A DNA stretch of 33,397 nucleotides from a virus. Below are positions 14,475-33,397 of this stretch, one piece after another. Within the stretch, counting starts at the first letter, position 1. Each line of letters begins with the position of its first letter. A program made the position numbers and the translations under genes. A model generated the notes under the pieces. The model ran no database searches, was not told the DNA's origin, and was given only the letters and a program-made list of their open reading frames with translations. The DNA lies in IMG/VR virus record IMGVR_UViG_3300028666_000077, positions 1-33,397 of that record. One strand, written 5' to 3'.

Positions 14475-15966
14475 CAGGTAATTCCTCTTCAATTTCTTCC
14501 AATTCTAAGCCGTTATAACCACTATCTTTATCTGAAATAATTTTTCTTTGTATATCAGACGCTGAAATAACACCCATTTCATGGTAAATTTGATCAGCCT
14601 GTGCTTTTTTCAGGTTTATATCGGCTTTTTCTATATCGGTCGAGCTATCAACGGGCTTAAATACAATATCGAAATTAAAAGGCTTTATGTTAAATTTTGG
14701 CAATATTTCTGATCTGATCAATATTTGATAATGTCTTTCGAGAAACTTAACTAAATGCGTTTCTTGTATGCTTTCCAGTGTTTCATGATAGTTTGATTCT
14801 TCATATTTTCCCGACGAATGAAATCCTTTAGGCGAAACACCCAATAATTTTGTTGCAGGCATTCCAGAAACGGCTGCGACTAATTGGTACTCTGTCATGA
14901 TGATATTGTCTAAATCACCTAAAGAAGTATCTATTCTTTGCATTTCTTCATTTGTATCTATAAGCTTTAGAGAATAATTGTTCCTGTATTTTGTATAAAA
15001 ATTAATTCTTTTTTCAGCTTCAGCTTGATTCGCTACAAATTCTCCTAAATTTGTTTTGAGTACATCTTGCCTTTTTGTAACCGCTAGGTTTGGTGCTTCA
15101 TTTGCTATTCTTTCACCTCCATACACTCTTTCAAATATTTTTTGAGTTAATGGTATGCCTCCATAAAAATAAGTAGGTTTCAAATAATCAGAAACACTTG
15201 AATTAATCATGACAACAAAGTGTGAATGATGAATTAATCTTCCCATAGCCATCCAATGCGTTGGTTTATAAAAACGCATTTTTGTTGGGTCAACTAAAGC
15301 CATTTCATCCAATTCTGGAACCATCCAATAAGGGTCTATTTGTCTAATTCCTTTATAACTTTTAGGTCTAACAGAATCTAAATTAAAAGGCTTTTCGAGA
15401 AACTCCCTCCTTTCATCTTCTTGCATATCAAATTCAAATAATGCATGTCTAACTCCAAATGTTCTCCCCTTATGAACAAATTCAATGGCATTATTTTTCA
15501 AATCAAATTTCTTATCATATTTCCTCATTGCATCTATTAATTCAGGAGGAATATAAGTGCCGTCATTAACTGTAATCTCATAATCATTACGCATCGCATC
15601 CTCAGCAGGAACTGCACATGCTTTATCAATCAACCAGTTCTGAGCTAATATTGAGCAATTTTGATACCCTATAAATCCTTGGTTAGCCAAAAATCCATAG
15701 ATAGAAGCAGGTAAAGATTCATTATTTGCCTGAAATGATGCTTTGATATTTTCATAATCTTCTACGGAATCCATTGCGAACTTACTTTTATTTACTACGC
15801 GAAAATCATCAAATGCGCTTCTCTGAAAATTCCTTTTATAGACTTCTTCAAAAAAATCACTGTTATCATCATTGTGATAATATTGATTCTTTATTGAATA
15901 TTTCTCTTCCTTTTTAATTTCTTCTTTTTTGCAATATCCAAAATAATTTAATAGCTCTTTTATCAT
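14416..15966 (-). CDS. Portal protein (DUF1073-like)
   Basis: A 516-residue probable portal, the dodecameric DNA entry ring at one capsid vertex. The DUF1073 pattern is clear: GYQNCSILAQNWLIDKACAV and PAEDAMRNDYEITV (the conserved n-x-x-i-d-k-x-x-x-x-p-a-e-D-a-x-r), WMAMGRLIHHSHFVVMINSS, then AAVSGMPATKLLGVSPKGFH (T-k-L-f-G-x-s-p-x-G-x-n/h) and the long helix SSGKYEESNYHETLESIQET. Its start overlaps the terminase stop as ATGA. The N-terminal ~60 residues are charged and unlike the rest, ending in KFAMDS (62-67), so they may be removed by the head protease. Confidence 0.88.
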   Translation of the reverse strand: MIKELLNYFGYCKKEEIKKEEKYSIKNQYYHNDDNSDFFEEVYKRNFQRSAFDDFRVVNKSKFAMDSVEDYENIKASFQANNESLPASIYGFLANQGFIGYQNCSILAQNWLIDKACAVPAEDAMRNDYEITVNDGTYIPPELIDAMRKYDKKFDLKNNAIEFVHKGRTFGVRHALFEFDMQEDERREFLEKPFNLDSVRPKSYKGIRQIDPYWMVPELDEMALVDPTKMRFYKPTHWMAMGRLIHHSHFVVMINSSVSDYLKPTYFYGGIPLTQKIFERVYGGERIANEAPNLAVTKRQDVLKTNLGEFVANQAEAEKRINFYTKYRNNYSLKLIDTNEEMQRIDTSLGDLDNIIMTEYQLVAAVSGMPATKLLGVSPKGFHSSGKYEESNYHETLESIQETHLVKFLERHYQILIRSEILPKFNIKPFNFDIVFKPVDSSTDIEKADINLKKAQADQIYHEMGVISASDIQRKIISDKDSGYNGLELEEIEEELPDEENSEIEISNEGENSGNR

Positions 15967-17531
15967 CTAATCATTCCCCATATTCCAGTTTTTGGAACAA
16001 AACACATCATCAAAGAATCGGCTAAATTAGGTGATTTAGAACCCTCTGGACTTTTATCAATTAAAACTTTACCGCTTGAATTGGTTGAAAAAGTAGGCTG
16101 AGAAAGCTCTACTGTTAATTGATTTATTTCTTTTATTTCACTACTTATAGAGATAAGATCATCTGGATTAAAGTCTGATTTTTCTGTTACAGCTCTATAA
16201 GTTTTTAGAAATTTTAGCCTTAAATTCCACCAGCTTTGCGCTTTAAGATTGGCGAAAAAATCCTCATTATTGATTCCATTAACCATTTGCGATCTTGGCG
16301 AAATAACCGAAGAGGAGCCTATAAATGGGTCGAATGCTATTTTTTTGCTTCTCTTTTCGTTAATTATTCTCGCATCACCCCTCACGCCTGCGCCTATAGG
16401 GGAAGAATCATAAATAACCTTTTCGCATTCGTTTAAATCAGCTATCGTGAAAGTTTTTGCAACACTTCCAAAAACATCGTTACCCTTACCGCTCCATGAT
16501 TCGACATGTTTAATTAATATTCCATGTCTAACGCATACTGCATTAAGGTCTTTTCCTTCATCTGCTATATCGAATCCTATTAGCTTAATGCCTGTAATGT
16601 CTATATTTAGTTTTTTGTGCGCATCAATAGAAGCTTGAACCCAAGCAGAAGGTATCAAAATACCTTGCGTAGAGGCGTTATAATCAATATCTAATTCTTG
16701 GGCAATGATAACAGGATCAATGAGTATATCTTTTTGTTTTTGATACCATTCTTCACTTTTACGTAGATCATCTCGCCAATGAAAGGTAAAAACTGGTATT
16801 TTCCCGCTATGCCTCCTTTGCGCAAAGACATTATTCATTCCATTGGGTGTTGAAATTTCAATTCGGCAAGGTGTCGTTTGAGAGAGCGCTGCATCTACTT
16901 TTTCATAATGATCAATAAATGCTGCTTCATCAACAAAGTAAAAGCTTGATCTTGCGCCTCGTCCTATATTGTAACCGCTTTCGCCCTCAAAATATGATCC
17001 ATTGTTAAATTGAATTAAATTTTCTTTAGCGTGCGTTCTTTCCGACCACTCGCCCGTAAATTCCTTAGGTAATAACTCAGTGAAAAAGATAGCTTTTGTA
17101 AACAATGCCTTTGGAGAGCCTTTCATCGAAATGAGCTCTTGTTTTCTAGAGCCAAAGCCAGCAACAATTCCTGAATTGAATAAACAAACTGTTGCGGCTG
17201 TTGCAATCATTAGCCAGCTTAACCCTACTTCTCTTGTTTTTTCTGTAATCCAATTTTCTTGATTTTTCCAATAAGTTAAAAAATCTCGAATCCATTCTTC
17301 TTGCTTAGGCATTAAAATGAATGGTAATATTGCAGGTAATCCTTTTTCAGGATTTCTTGGGTCAAATGTGCAACCCCAATCTGTAATAAATTGAGCTGGA
17401 TTTTCTCTATAGAATACTTTAAGGCTTTTTAAAATGCTTGGATTTTTTCTTATTTTCTTAAGTCTATCTAATCGCCATTTAATAATGCTTGTGTAGTCTG
17501 GATTTTTAAAGTCGAATTCAAGAAAATGCAT
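15963..17531 (-). CDS. Terminase large subunit (ATPase-nuclease)
   Basis: A 522-residue packaging motor protein. Degenerate Walker A lies in EKTREVGLSW (97-106, of the K-s-R-q-x-G-x-S-W type) and Walker B in SFYFVDEAAF (196-205, D201, E202). Motif III-like ISTPNG is at 226-231. The C-terminal RNase H-like nuclease is marked by IGFDIADEGKD (D321), VIYDSSPIGAG (D375) and NLADSLMM (D505), giving three acidic residues for metal binding. It lies immediately upstream of the portal with a 4-base ATGA overlap, but about 7 kb from the small subunit. Confidence 0.93.
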   Translation of the reverse strand: MHFLEFDFKNPDYTSIIKWRLDRLKKIRKNPSILKSLKVFYRENPAQFITDWGCTFDPRNPEKGLPAILPFILMPKQEEWIRDFLTYWKNQENWITEKTREVGLSWLMIATAATVCLFNSGIVAGFGSRKQELISMKGSPKALFTKAIFFTELLPKEFTGEWSERTHAKENLIQFNNGSYFEGESGYNIGRGARSSFYFVDEAAFIDHYEKVDAALSQTTPCRIEISTPNGMNNVFAQRRHSGKIPVFTFHWRDDLRKSEEWYQKQKDILIDPVIIAQELDIDYNASTQGILIPSAWVQASIDAHKKLNIDITGIKLIGFDIADEGKDLNAVCVRHGILIKHVESWSGKGNDVFGSVAKTFTIADLNECEKVIYDSSPIGAGVRGDARIINEKRSKKIAFDPFIGSSSVISPRSQMVNGINNEDFFANLKAQSWWNLRLKFLKTYRAVTEKSDFNPDDLISISSEIKEINQLTVELSQPTFSTNSSGKVLIDKSPEGSKSPNLADSLMMCFVPKTGIWGMIR

Positions 17532-18882: not shown

Positions 18883-18934
18883 TCAAGTAATCCTTGACTA
18901 CTGAACTGTCAAGTAATCCTTGACTATTGAACTA
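18883..18934. repeat. Two tandem 26-bp units, each with a small hairpin
   Basis: Units at 18883-18908 and 18909-18934 differ at only a few positions. Each contains TCAAG-TAATC-CTTGA, a 5-6 bp stem with a 5-base loop. A fragment of a third unit runs into the larger hairpin at 18938. They lie just past the stop of the rightward gene (18870) in a convergent intergenic region. Confidence 0.75.
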
Positions 18935-24791: not shown

Positions 24792-25259
24792 TCACCTCAT
24801 AAAATCTTTATAAATATTCGTTGCTTCATTGGGATTGACAGGAATATTACCTGTATCAATTTCTTTTAAAATGGGCTTATTTTGTTCTATGCTTTGCTTC
24901 ATTAGCTCTAATTTCTTTTCTTCTATTTTTAATCGTTTCCTTCTTTCATATTCCATGTATTTACCACGTGTTTTGAGAAGGAAAATCTGAGCCGTTGTGT
25001 CGCCTTCTTCTACAGCTTTTTTGTAAATTGCATTAGAGATAGCTTTTACTACAGCGATTCGCCCTCTTTTTATTGCTGATACCAATTCGGGATCGTTATG
25101 ACGGCGTTTTCTAAATCCGTCTGGAGTCATTCCTATTGATTCACCCATTTCAGCATAAGTAAGTCCGCACCTAGAAAGCTCCTCAATTTCTTTGTAATTT
25201 ATCGGAGTGTCAGGTCTTCCTACTTTTTGTAAATCTTCAGGGTTCTTTGGTTTAGTCAT
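24792..25259 (-). CDS. Terminase small subunit (HTH protein)
   Basis: A 155-residue probable DNA-recognition subunit of packaging. GRPDTPINYKEIEELSRCGL then TYAEMGESIGMTPDGFRKRR (about 35-55) is a helix-turn-helix of the small terminase type. The following long helix AVVKAISNAIYKKAVEEGDT with TAQIFLLKTRGKYMEY matches the conserved A-x-x-G-x/D-x-x-A-x-x-F-x-L-K-x-x-x-G-W/Y-x-E of many TerS proteins. The codons for the recognition helix overlap a 27-bp sequence repeated 302 bases upstream, outside the gene. It is the first gene of the late operon. Confidence 0.82.
   Translation of the reverse strand: MTKPKNPEDLQKVGRPDTPINYKEIEELSRCGLTYAEMGESIGMTPDGFRKRRHNDPELVSAIKRGRIAVVKAISNAIYKKAVEEGDTTAQIFLLKTRGKYMEYERRKRLKIEEKKLELMKQSIEQNKPILKEIDTGNIPVNPNEATNIYKDFMR
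25094..25120. repeat. 27-bp exact direct repeat, copy inside the small terminase gene
   Basis: The 27 bases starting CGTTATGACGGCG and ending CTAAATCCGT are identical to 25396-25422. This copy encodes the recognition-helix segment DGFRKRRHN of the TerS-like protein. Confidence 0.95.
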
Positions 25260-27368: not shown

Positions 27369-28367
27369 TTAAATTACATAATTAAAAGCTTGTTCTTTAT
27401 ATAGCCTACCGCTCGCTATTTCTTTTCCTGTTTCTACCATGAAATTAATCTCGTTTTCGCCTATCTGTTCTTTTGATTCAAAACTAAAATAGTTAAGTAT
27501 TTTTTCCTCGCTGATTCCCATTGATTCAAACATTTCTAAAATGGATGATAAATTAGGTTCTTTTTTTTCTTCAGAATGGGTTTTATTCAAAATTTCTTCT
27601 AAAACAGACTCTTTATTAGATTCTGTAGAAATTAAGAAAGCTTTTTCCAAAGATAAATGACCCTCATTAATATTAGTGCCTATTCCTATCATCTCCTCAA
27701 TTTGATTGATATTGACTTGTTCAATGCTTTTTATTGAAAAATAGTTAAATATTTTATTTTGATCAATTCCCATTTTACTAAAACGATCTATTAAATTTTT
27801 TGCTTTATTAATTATTCGTTCATGTGAAATTACAGGATTAGATTTGTCTTTTGTTATGGAAAAATTAAGTGCTTTTTTATAAAGTATATCAATAAATGAG
27901 CGGGGAATAATGCTAAATATTGCATTGCGAAGGGCTATTGATGAAGCTGCGTTACCTGTTACAGTTTGCATATCTTGAGAATAAGTTTTCCCATTTTTTG
28001 TTAAAATACTTCTTTTAACTTGTTTAGCTATTTTTATGTTTTTTTCTAAATCCCAAGCAACCCCCTCTGCTGTAATCATCTTCCCGTCATTTTCAACAAT
28101 GCGCGTCGCTGCATGAATATTTCCCCAGCACGCTGCTGCTATTTCCGCTAATCTAACAGACGCTCCTTTTATGTGATTCTTATTTCCGTCTTGACTGCTT
28201 CGCTCAAGGGAATAAATGCATGATTCAGCAGTTTGCTCATCGAGCGTTACTAATTCCTCTGCATCTTTTATAAATTGCGTAATACTTCTCGGATAAGCTT
28301 TAGCGGTATTAATTTGCTTGTCTAATTCAAGCCCAATGGCTGAATCAATTATTGCTATTTCAGACAC
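27369..28367 (-). CDS. Putative single-strand annealing recombinase with duplicated C-terminal module
   Basis: A 332-residue protein whose first ~165 residues follow a conserved phage pattern: ESCIYSLERSSQDGNKNHIK, GASVRLAEIAAACWGNIHAA, NDGKMITAEGVAWDLEKNIK, TGNAASSIALRNAIFSIIPR. In related phages such proteins accompany a RecE-like exonuclease, and a single-strand annealing role is inferred. The C-terminal part contains two copies of a ~50-residue module, at 195-244 and 279-328 (F-x-S/K-M-G-I-x-x-x-K-I-x-N-Y-F-S ... G-x-L-x-x-E-x-A-F). Its start overlaps the exonuclease gene's end by 8 bases. Confidence 0.65.
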   Translation of the reverse strand: MSEIAIIDSAIGLELDKQINTAKAYPRSITQFIKDAEELVTLDEQTAESCIYSLERSSQDGNKNHIKGASVRLAEIAAACWGNIHAATRIVENDGKMITAEGVAWDLEKNIKIAKQVKRSILTKNGKTYSQDMQTVTGNAASSIALRNAIFSIIPRSFIDILYKKALNFSITKDKSNPVISHERIINKAKNLIDRFSKMGIDQNKIFNYFSIKSIEQVNINQIEEMIGIGTNINEGHLSLEKAFLISTESNKESVLEEILNKTHSEEKKEPNLSSILEMFESMGISEEKILNYFSFESKEQIGENEINFMVETGKEIASGRLYKEQAFNYVI

Positions 28368-29193
28368 AATAAACCTCTCTTAAGTTGTTTAAATAATCAC
28401 GATTGTTAAGTAAATAAGGCGGCATTTTTGCTATTCTTATTTTATGGGTATCGGCTTTCCATAGATCAGACTCAAAACACTTTTTTAATGCTTTTAAGGT
28501 GGTTTTATACTCTTCTCTACCCTTTTCTATGGTTTCTGAGTCCATTTCATAGACATACGCATTGAAAGGCTCTTCGGTTTGAACTACAAAGAAAACATAG
28601 CAATCTATATTTCTTATAGAATCAATTTGCATAGCAGCCTGTATGTGATACCCGTATTCTTCAATTGAGTACTGAAAACTAGAAATATTGCTGATAGTTT
28701 TTAAATCACAAACAATCCTCAATTTCGGGTTAAAAATATCAGGTTTAGCTTTGCAAAAAATTTTAGTTTCTTCATCTTCCCAAAAAACACAACACTCAAA
28801 TAAAGCGTCTTGGGTTAATTTTTTGAACATAGGATGAACCATAACGTTTGAACTAATTAGCATCGCTTTATCGAGTTCATCTTGATCAACTATGATTAGC
28901 CCTTTATTTTCCATTTCCTTAATTACTTCCGATTGTTCTTTTCCTTCCTTAGTTCGTCCATCCAATTTTTTTTTTATAAAATACTCCTGCTCAAATTTAT
29001 CTTTTTCTAAGCATAGCGTGTGAACCAGTGAACCAAGATTAGTCTGTTTTGACTTGGTTGGTTCTATTGTTTTTTGTATATTTTTTAGATAAAAATACAT
29101 AGGTGATTTTTTAAAATCATTGACCATACTTCGGCTTATCGCAGTATGAGCATGATAATCTTTATTGCTAATATCTTTTATAATTTCATTCAT
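28360..29193 (-). CDS. RecE-like PD-(D/E)XK exonuclease (DUF3799 type)
   Basis: A 277-residue probable 5'-3' double-strand exonuclease for phage recombination. KDYHAHTAISRSMVNDFKKS (11-30) and GSLVHTLCLE (54-63, H58) match the N-terminal signature of RecE C-terminal-domain proteins. The catalytic core shows E133 (FECCVF), CKAKPDIF (D152) and VCDLKTI (D163, K165), then YHIQAAMQID (182-191) corresponding to the conserved Q-x-x-x-Y helix. It is paired in an operon with the putative annealing protein, as RecE is with RecT. Confidence 0.87.
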   Translation of the reverse strand: MNEIIKDISNKDYHAHTAISRSMVNDFKKSPMYFYLKNIQKTIEPTKSKQTNLGSLVHTLCLEKDKFEQEYFIKKKLDGRTKEGKEQSEVIKEMENKGLIIVDQDELDKAMLISSNVMVHPMFKKLTQDALFECCVFWEDEETKIFCKAKPDIFNPKLRIVCDLKTISNISSFQYSIEEYGYHIQAAMQIDSIRNIDCYVFFVVQTEEPFNAYVYEMDSETIEKGREEYKTTLKALKKCFESDLWKADTHKIRIAKMPPYLLNNRDYLNNLREVYCV

Positions 29194-30466: not shown

Positions 30467-30979
30467 TTAATTCTCGTCTTTAAAAAAACCAATTGGGTTT
30501 TTAATACCTTTTTTTCTAACTTCTAAATAATCAAGTGTCCCATATTTTTTTTTAATATCCTCCTCAAAAAAATTAAAATAATTTCCACTTATTAAAAAAT
30601 TATATTCTTCACGATATTGAAAATCACATTGATGACAAAATAATTTATTTCTATCTGTTATTTCTCTACCACACCGAACTCCATTAACCCATGAAACACA
30701 TCCTTTTTCTAATATTTTTTGAAATTCTTGTTCTTTTTCTTTAGCTTCAAAATATTCAATTTTTTCTTTCAAAACTGAAATTAAAATTTTCCCTCCCTTG
30801 TATTCCAAAATATAGTTTTTTACAGCTTTTTCGATAGCGATAAGGCTGTATTGATAAAATATTTTACAGCACATCTCAGTAAAATCTTTTCCCAATTCCT
30901 CGCGAACACCCACTCCTAAAACGTGAAGAAGTTCATTTATTTTTTTATTTTTATCAATATAAATTTCTACATCATTCAT
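30467..30979 (-). CDS. Zinc-ribbon protein next to the replication initiator
   Basis: A 170-residue protein. Residues 1-85 are helical (ELGKDFTEMCCKIFYQYSLI, AVKNYILEYKGGKILISVLK). Four cysteines, C94, C103, C115 and C118 (GCVSWVNGVRCG and LFCHQCDF), form a C-x8-C-x11-C-x2-C zinc ribbon. The C-terminus is aromatic and charged. It overlaps the end of the initiator gene by 8 bases, the place where lambda-type phages carry a helicase loader. That role is inference from position, and I recognise no ATPase motif. Confidence 0.6.
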   Translation of the reverse strand: MNDVEIYIDKNKKINELLHVLGVGVREELGKDFTEMCCKIFYQYSLIAIEKAVKNYILEYKGGKILISVLKEKIEYFEAKEKEQEFQKILEKGCVSWVNGVRCGREITDRNKLFCHQCDFQYREEYNFLISGNYFNFFEEDIKKKYGTLDYLEVRKKGIKNPIGFFKDEN

Positions 30980-32375
30980 CTAACGAAACGCCTTTAACGA
31001 ATAATTTTGCTTCCTCCTCAATTTTTTTATCCACCGCCAAGCGATCTTGCCTTAGTCTCTCCTCGCGAATATCTGCCCACGAAGGAGGCAAAGAAGATTT
31101 GATAGGCATCGTATTTTTTTTTAAAACATGGCGTTCATAGCGATTTAGATTTGTTTCGATGTTTATCATGATCGATTCAAGCTTGTACTGCCCGTTTTGG
31201 ACGCACCAATCATTCGAGAAACACCCGAGTATGGCATTCAAACAATCCTGCAAAGCCAATTTTTCATCGCCTTTGTGGATTTTTTTTCGTTCGGTAAACG
31301 CCTCACATATTTTTTTCAATCGCAGTTTGTTTGCCTTCGTTCGGATTTCGATGTCAAGACCTTCAACCCCATCTCCCAATTTTCTTTTTTGTTCGGTATA
31401 ATAGGCGAAAACCACTCTTTGCCACTCGGTGAAAGCATCCCTATTATTTTCGGGTTTAATCGAAGAATCGTTTTCTTGCCCTCTAACAGGCTCGTCAGAG
31501 CACTTTTCTAAGCCACCCGCCACTATCCCCTTACCTGACCCATTTTCTATCACTGTTGAGCTCGTATCAGCTTCACAGGTGGCATCAAAGAGCAGATATA
31601 CATCCTCACTTTCTGTTTTTTGATCAAAATCAAAATTATCTTCCCCAAAAAAACGTTGTTCCTGCGCAGCAGGGGCAACAAGCGGAAGCGAAGCTGGAGC
31701 AAATAAAACACCGTCGTCATTTCCACCTTCGTTCGAGGTTCCCCCTGCACCCCCTCCTAGTATTTGTTTTTGTTGTTTGTTATTTGTTGTTTGTTGTATG
31801 TTGCATGTTGCATGTACATAGAACCCCTTCGAGACCCCTTCGAGACCCCTTCGAGACCCCTTCGAGACCCCTTCGGAAGGGGTCTCGAGATTTTCCGATA
31901 GGTATCGACTTTTTTCAAATCGATTATAATCTTCATGGTAATGAGAATGGTAATCTTCATGGTAAATTAAATGATTCATAATATTTTTATTCCTTTCTAA
32001 AAACCTATTTTTGAATGACAACTCTTCAGGTAGTTTTTTGAAAATTTTGAGGGCTGTCTTTAATTGATTGTCAGTTGGCTTTAAATTACCTATATCCTCT
32101 TCAGACCTATCGCATACCCATACATAACTGTTTTCTTCGTCATATTCACAAAACCCCACTTCACAAAGCGATTTAACTGTATCGATTACCTTATCTATAG
32201 AAATTCCTGTTTCATGAGAAAGAAGGGCTGCTGGCATTTTATATATACCTATTAAGTTGGAATAAGGAGAAGTCATCAAATAAAGCGAAATCGCAACGCA
32301 TTCTGCGCTAATTTTAGTTATTTTCTTCCAAGTTTTTTTCTCGAAGAAATTACTGCTTATTTTTGAATAACTCAT
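30972..32375 (-). CDS. Replication initiation protein (phage O-like) with internal iterons
   Basis: A 467-residue probable origin-binding protein. Residues 1-100 look like a winged-helix replisome organiser: FFEKKTWKKITKISAECVAI, SLYLMTSPYSNLIGIYKMPA, LLSHETGISIDKVIDTVKSL, then FCEYDEENSYVWVCD. Residues 135-185 carry repeats encoded by DNA-level repeats. Residues 190-310 form a low-complexity linker. Residues 310-467 form a helical C-terminal domain (AFTEWQRVVFAYYTEQKRKL, KLRLKKICEAFTERKK) ending with a charged tail. Having the origin inside the initiator gene recalls lambda O. It is the first gene of the leftward early operon. Confidence 0.72.
   Translation of the reverse strand: MSYSKISSNFFEKKTWKKITKISAECVAISLYLMTSPYSNLIGIYKMPAALLSHETGISIDKVIDTVKSLCEVGFCEYDEENSYVWVCDRSEEDIGNLKPTDNQLKTALKIFKKLPEELSFKNRFLERNKNIMNHLIYHEDYHSHYHEDYNRFEKSRYLSENLETPSEGVSKGSRRGLEGVSKGFYVHATCNIQQTTNNKQQKQILGGGAGGTSNEGGNDDGVLFAPASLPLVAPAAQEQRFFGEDNFDFDQKTESEDVYLLFDATCEADTSSTVIENGSGKGIVAGGLEKCSDEPVRGQENDSSIKPENNRDAFTEWQRVVFAYYTEQKRKLGDGVEGLDIEIRTKANKLRLKKICEAFTERKKIHKGDEKLALQDCLNAILGCFSNDWCVQNGQYKLESIMINIETNLNRYERHVLKKNTMPIKSSLPPSWADIREERLRQDRLAVDKKIEEEAKLFVKGVSLDE
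31759..31815. other. Skewed AT-rich tract beside the iterons (candidate unwinding element)
   Basis: The plus strand is a run of TTGTTTGTT-like words with almost no C up to 31803, then TTGCATG twice. It lies directly next to the iteron array. Iterons flanked by an AT-rich tract are the usual layout of a phage or plasmid origin. Confidence 0.5.
31828..31871. repeat. Four tandem 11-bp iterons within the replication gene
   Basis: TTCGAGACCCC is repeated four times without gaps at 31828, 31839, 31850 and 31861, with a partial CCCC before the first. The period of 11 is not a multiple of three, so the repeat passes through all frames. It matches the helical repeat of DNA and suggests selection on DNA. 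An inverted copy follows. Confidence 0.92.
31862..31888. repeat. 12-bp inverted repeat at the end of the iteron array
   Basis: TCGAGACCCCTT (31862-31873) and AAGGGGTCTCGA (31877-31888) are perfect complements with a 3-base centre, CGG. The right arm is an inverted copy of the iteron unit (10 of 11 bases). It could extrude as a cruciform or form a strong RNA hairpin. Confidence 0.92.
31927..31965. repeat. 15-bp direct repeat with 24-bp period in the replication gene
   Basis: TAATCTTCATGGTAA occurs at 31927-31941 and 31951-31965. The 24-bp period is in frame and encodes YHEDY twice (residues 138-142 and 146-150). It lies about 40 bases from the iteron hairpin. Confidence 0.85.
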
Positions 32376-33096: not shown

Positions 33097-33397
33097 ATGA
33101 TAATTAATAAAGAGTTTTTTTTAGATTGTGAAGACAGCTTCTGCGGCGGAGGCTACGACGGTGGCGGAAGAGGAAGCGGATTCGGCTACGGAGGCCGCTT
33201 CGGCTACGGAAGCGGAAGCGGCAGCGGCGGAGGAGGAGACCGAGAAGGATACGGCTGCGGCTGCTTCTACGACAGCGGAGCAGACAGCGGCTGCGGAGAC
33301 GGAGACGGAGAAGGAAGCGGAAGCGGCGCCGGCTACGGAGACGGCAGAGGAAGAGGCTGCGGCTACGGAGACGGCTACGAAGACGAAAGCGGCGACG
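33097..33397 (+). CDS. Glycine-rich repetitive protein, 3' end cut by window
   Basis: The frame opens at an ATG 23 bases after the repressor stop, preceded by AGGA at about 8 bases, and stays open for 100 codons to the edge. After MIINKEFFLDCEDSFC the sequence becomes G-x repeats with Ser, Asp, Tyr, Arg and Cys between glycines: 39 of 100 residues are Gly, with six Cys. Almost every codon ends in C or A (GGC, GGA, AGC, GAC, TAC, TGC), so this DNA is far richer in G+C than the rest of the window. No enzyme domain is visible. Gly-rich proteins of this style occur in other phages and prophages, but their role is unknown to me. Confidence 0.72.
   Translation, partial: MIINKEFFLDCEDSFCGGGYDGGGRGSGFGYGGRFGYGSGSGSGGGGDREGYGCGCFYDSGADSGCGDGDGEGSGSGAGYGDGRGRGCGYGDGYEDESGD

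Follow-up and report, generated by a model that had tools for sequence, protein, structure and literature searches.

A predicted intragenic iteron origin in the replication initiator gene of a contractile-tailed phage and its relatives

Iteron plasmid origins of the RepA/RepE type are recognized by winged-helix initiators that bind direct repeats located beside the opening region; such iterons, of about 17-22 bp, are generally located outside the rep gene. In phage lambda and the Stx phages, the iterons occupy the mid-section of gene O, next to an AT-rich tract, and the smallest fragment that can be unwound contains two iterons together with the adjacent tract (PMC7466680). A putative iteron origin has also been predicted in the fhv_0043 replication gene of the Francisella phage vB_FhiM_KIRK (PMC7924643). 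Origins of this kind are already known. Here we analyze a phage genome with a similarly placed array of 11-bp repeats which, judging from the sequences of the locus and its relatives, is very probably the intragenic iteron replication origin of this phage, working like ori-lambda.

The phage and its initiator gene

The analyzed stretch of DNA (the window) comprises one virus record, 33,397 bases long, with ~67% A+T (33% G+C). The phage is identified as contractile-tailed from a profile scan of its genes, which matched baseplate, tape measure, sheath, capsid, portal, and terminase proteins. Several other features of the record are worth mentioning. Two adjoining genes on the minus strand (27369-29193) match exonuclease VIII (phrog_412) and phrog_3657, and are perhaps a recombination pair; the locus L218 contains a homolog of the phrog_3657 gene, and its initiator differs from that of this phage while the iterons are the same. 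A 26-bp tandem duplication is located in an intergenic region (18883-18933). The right end of the record (33097-33397, plus strand) has 67% G+C, in a phage with 33% G+C, contains CGG/GAA-type repeats, and is covered by a Gly-rich open frame that runs off the end of the record, being either a candidate gene or an assembly artefact.

The replication initiator gene, P0001, spans positions 30972..32375 of the minus strand (467 codons) and was recognized as an open reading frame with PHROG matches to the N-terminal domain of its product. This domain matches phrog_1701, 'DnaD-like helicase loader' (2.6e-23, residues 2-134), and, about as strongly, the unnamed families phrog_25210 and phrog_12196; phrog_25711 is also among the PHROG matches of the initiator. 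By the sequence of its N-domain, the initiator is a homolog of the phrog_1701 DnaD-like helicase loader family. A Pfam search of the initiator matched no family, and the O-like phrog_678 is absent from its PHROG matches, so that membership in the lambda O family was not found. The gene had originally been predicted to encode an O-like initiator; the protein is predicted to be functionally O-like, and by sequence it falls outside the lambda O family. The early genes of the phage scanned against Pfam and PHROG included no recognizable helicase or loader gene, and the neighboring gene (30467-30979) has no match in phages.

The AlphaFold2 model of residues 1-135 (codons 31971..32375, minus strand; pLDDT 94, pTM 0.86) is a winged helix, in which several helices are followed by helix 60-72 and a two-strand wing (76-79/84-87). 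A search of solved structures with the initiator sequence gave no match, and the Foldseek fold search yielded weak matches (E above 0.01), mostly to generic MarR-type winged-helix regulators; therefore, the fold is taken from the model and not from any named relative. From its position before the wing strands in the model, helix 60-72 (codons 32160..32198, minus strand) is the likely recognition helix. A linker predicted to be disordered (about residues 166-308, codons 31452..31880, minus strand; pLDDT below 50) holds the repeat array and the adjacent tract. The C-terminal region (residues 308-462, codons 30990..31454, minus strand) consists of helices predicted with mixed confidence (308-333, 340-366, 371-386, 390-421, and 433-462) and is a candidate contact for the helicase or its loader.

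The iteron array, hairpin and adjacent tract

Tandem Repeats Finder reports a repeat of period 11 at 31823-31875, with 4.8 copies and 100% matches. On the minus strand, the iteron array (31823..31873) resolves into four perfect 11-bp copies of AAGGGGTCTCG, at 31863-31873, 31852-31862, 31841-31851, and 31830-31840, and a partial fifth copy reaching 31823. An inverted copy of the unit lies on the plus strand (31877..31887), so that one inverted copy stands ahead of the four direct ones and forms a hairpin with the nearest of them. Exact AAGGGGTCTCG occurs five times in the 33.4 kb record, and every copy, four direct and one inverted, is at the array. The arms of the inverted repeat are 13 bp long, with 1 nt between them (31862-31874 / 31876-31888); folded as single-stranded DNA, the hairpin has a 12 bp stem and a 3-nt loop (-13.4 kcal/mol, z -4.2). 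An Rfam search gave no match. The G+C content of the array is 64% against 38% in the flanks, a value reached by 0.015% of the 66-mers of the record.

The period of 11 is out of the reading frame. In the gene, exact period 11 persists for up to 42 nt, and the maximum in 2000 shuffles that swapped synonymous codons, with the protein and the codon usage fixed, was 18; an explanation of the array by a repetitive peptide is rejected by this comparison. The original prediction of four perfect tandem repeats, G+C-rich against their surroundings and not accounted for by protein repetition, is thus borne out at 31830-31873, with a partial fifth copy added. Its inverted copy is present as well, and the 12-bp stem that it proposed is the stem of the single-stranded fold, the inverted-repeat arms being 13 bp.

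Downstream of the array on the minus strand is a tract of period 7 (31763..31815; 6 copies by Tandem Repeats Finder), which reads CAACAAA on the G-poor coding strand. As predicted, the tract is C-poor on the plus strand (2 C in 53); it is not strikingly AT-rich, with 72% A+T compared to ~67% in the phage, and its stability is ordinary. Because 45% of the 42-mers of the record are less stable than the tract, the name of a classical AT-rich unwinding element is not applied to it, and AT-richness was dropped as its defining mark in this phage. The corresponding tracts of the relatives are among the less stable stretches of their genes, with a median of 11% of 36-mers falling below them in stability. 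The tract of this phage is placed like the period-6 CARGAR tract of the relatives, and two AT-rich relatives (L019 and L023) share period-7 tracts. It is a candidate unwinding or loading tract.

On the 5' side of the gene, 40 bp from the array, there is also a 12-bp repeat, TAATCTTCATGG, in about 3 copies (31927-31965); just past it (gene nt 372-413) comes the 42-mer with the lowest stability in the gene. These two elements are possible extra parts of the origin.

Relatives, their repeat unit and selection on the DNA

Using tblastn, homologous N-domains (~36% identity, E about 1e-19) were found in phages of Klebsiella, Escherichia, and Acinetobacter and in a few plasmids. Alignment-based searches produced hundreds of relatives among viral contigs and 61 loci among genomes, mostly prophages, from beta- and gammaproteobacteria for the most part, with some from alphaproteobacteria and some more distant cases. 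The closest N-domains are only about 37-43% identical to that of this phage; no close relatives of the whole protein were found in the viral and genome collections, and the exact 22-mer of the array was found in none of the viral contigs searched.

Most of the loci L004-L158 contain an 11-bp-spaced unit consisting of AAGGGGCTT plus two bases, or its reverse. The linker copies are located at gene nt about 430-475 and are followed, within a few bases, by the short-period tract, usually CARGAR. Most of the loci L004-L147 have, in addition, a cluster of two or three copies (cluster 1; gene nt about 177-210). The codons of cluster 1 are those of the predicted recognition helix, which is thus encoded by one copy of what is putatively the binding site. 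The gene after the initiator in the relatives encodes a DnaC-like protein or a primase/helicase. A hairpin formed by an inverted unit is not general among them.

Compared to the initiators of proteobacterial prophages and of the Klebsiella, Escherichia, and Acinetobacter phages (MK448237, PV340546, and OR180314), that of this phage has a homologous N-domain and likewise contains an 11-bp-spaced unit in the linker before a short-period tract. However, its unit, AAGGGGTCT, mismatches AAGGGGCTT at 2 of 9 core positions, and there are zero copies of AAGGGGCTT within one mismatch in its gene. Unlike those initiators, it has no copies of the unit in the recognition-helix codons; the longest near-match between the helix codons and the linker is 7 nt, compared to an average of 18 in a sample of the main family. 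Furthermore, the tract has a period of 7 (CAACAAA) here and 6 there, and the C-terminal parts differ. Because the unit differs and cluster 1 is absent, this phage is tied to the family by position, period, and a partial likeness in sequence. Comparing the unit among relatives, the check suggested with the original proposal, strengthens the candidate origin as a prediction, an 11-bp unit being present in the same linker of the relatives.

The repeats could, in principle, be a copy-control or autoregulatory site for the initiator or another regulator rather than a replication start, given that plasmid iteron arrays serve both purposes. We consider this improbable: promoter control would more naturally lie upstream of the gene, and the constant placement by a short-period, strand-asymmetric tract, along with the likeness to ori-lambda (PMC7466680), favors an origin.

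Across the family, selection acts on the DNA and not on the peptide, as shown by comparison with synonymous-codon shuffles. In 62 non-redundant genes (less than 90% identical in the N-domain), there are 226 copies of the unit, with one mismatch allowed and both strands counted, compared to an expectation of 50.4 from gene-by-gene shuffling of synonymous codons. At least two copies are present in 48 of the 62 genes, and p≤0.05 was obtained for 47. These copy counts were taken from the shuffle comparison, a de novo motif finder run at fixed gene positions being noisy for such short segments. Successive copies are separated by 11 bp in 95 intervals, and all three frames are occupied. The linker copies of 7 genes are in the forward orientation, those of 37 are reverse, and another 7 genes have both; forward copies read EGASKGL and reverse copies APSKPL, the DNA site being unchanged by the switch. 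Forward and reverse orientations interchanged at least four times on a tree of the N-domains, which was built with a quick method, excluding the recognition-helix residues, and has many weak forks, with this phage on a long branch. Because the copies occur in all frames and in both orientations and exceed those in the shuffles, what is kept is the DNA rather than the peptide.

The relatives had also been expected to show co-variation of the unit with the DNA-binding domain. This is clear in subfamily 2 (L149, L152, L154, and L155), which has a different unit that changed together in both clusters: the helix codons of these genes match their own linkers over 12-13 nt, compared to about 9 nt for the linkers of the main family. 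In subfamily 3, the covariation is weak, the helix codons fitting subfamily-2 linkers as well as their own.

We then have to consider a repetitive protein linker that grew by slippage, with no role for the DNA. The linker is predicted to be disordered, tandem repeats in linkers arise by slippage, and the perfect copies in this phage are what recent slippage would leave. However, the period is out of frame, the repeat is lost in synonymous shuffles, and the relatives keep the DNA in the opposite orientation, with other residues and in all frames; moreover, a scan that uses DNA only reaches initiator genes. Slippage is therefore a highly unlikely explanation.

In that scan, viral contigs were searched for three spaced units, with no reference to proteins, and 80 loci were obtained. 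In 54 of these, the array lies inside a gene of this initiator family, as identified by profile search. Among the other 26, L165 is an incomplete family gene, by inspection, L217 and L221 are in unclear frames, and the remaining loci are distant initiator-like genes, often ahead of a short-period tract. Of ten distant genes scanned, six have hits to PHROGs with the names replication initiation protein, replisome organizer, or O-like; for a seventh, the sole hit is to an unnamed family, and the other three have no hit, the initiator-like label of the genes unmatched in PHROG being our own reading of their sequences. Loci with the 11-bp-spaced unit and weak or no detectable similarity to the family include L160, L168, L172, L174, L175, L180, L190, L193, L198, L200, and others, in which the unit may reflect either common ancestry or convergence. 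Because the search for spaced units reaches initiator-type genes almost every time, the repeat can be used to locate candidate origins and offers a sequence-only route to them in many phages and prophages in which the replication start is unmapped.

It is also highly unlikely that the array is another cis site of the phage, such as a packaging (pac) site or the recognition site of a parasite: small terminases also use direct repeats, but the terminase genes (24792-25259 and 15963-17531) are at least 6 kb away, and it is the initiator gene that the site accompanies, even where plasmids and prophages have other flanking genes.

The proposed origin and its comparison with known systems

As in the intragenic origins of the lambda type, the tandem repeats of this phage lie inside the initiator gene, in the linker between the domains. 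The GC skew changes sign near the array, but this change coincides with a flip in gene direction and was therefore given no weight. Within the iteron origin reading, we infer initiator binding, strand opening, helicase loading, and origin firing in this phage as follows. The winged-helix N-domain would bind the 11-bp units, building a nucleoprotein complex on the linker-coding DNA; 11 bp being approximately one helix turn, neighboring initiator molecules would lie on the same face of the DNA. The duplex would then open beside the iteron complex, and the strand-asymmetric tract downstream would probably serve, once single-stranded, as the place where the host replicative helicase lands; the helicase might be brought by the C-terminal region of the initiator and/or by host or phage loaders.

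An extended version of this origin reading, which we hold with clearly less than even confidence, is that the DNA encoding the recognition helix is itself a binding site, with the second cluster ~240 bp downstream, in the linker, and that the two clusters may loop together. This phage would have escaped the arrangement, keeping the linker sites with a shifted unit, and the role of the period-6/7 tract would be that of a single-strand register for the initiator or the helicase, rather than a classical AT-rich element. With the site and its reader sharing the same bases, any change in the helix would immediately alter the site as well, and the linker cluster would have to follow. The recognition-helix cluster is a natural system for studying how a protein and its site change jointly when one stretch of bases specifies both. 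Neither the unit nor the arrangement of two clusters of 11-bp units, one of them encoding the recognition helix, is described in the open-access papers searched, and the novelty of the two-cluster family is accordingly provisional.

Compared to the iteron plasmid origins, the array described here is inside the initiator gene and has an 11-bp unit. The resemblance to vB_FhiM_KIRK is by description: both phages are low-GC, about 34 kb in size, and encode a YopX protein; KIRK is temperate, and its replication protein is classed as the Phg_2220_C type (PMC7924643). The origins of lambda and the Stx phages share the layout seen here, in which tandem iterons midway along the initiator gene lie beside a tract and are translated as protein (PMC7466680). 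In contrast to ori-lambda, where the iteron itself is an inverted repeat and the tract is AT-rich (PMC7466680), the unit in this phage repeats every 11 bp and the tract is C-poor on the plus strand, with a period of 7; the PHROG that its initiator matches is named DnaD-like helicase loader, not O.
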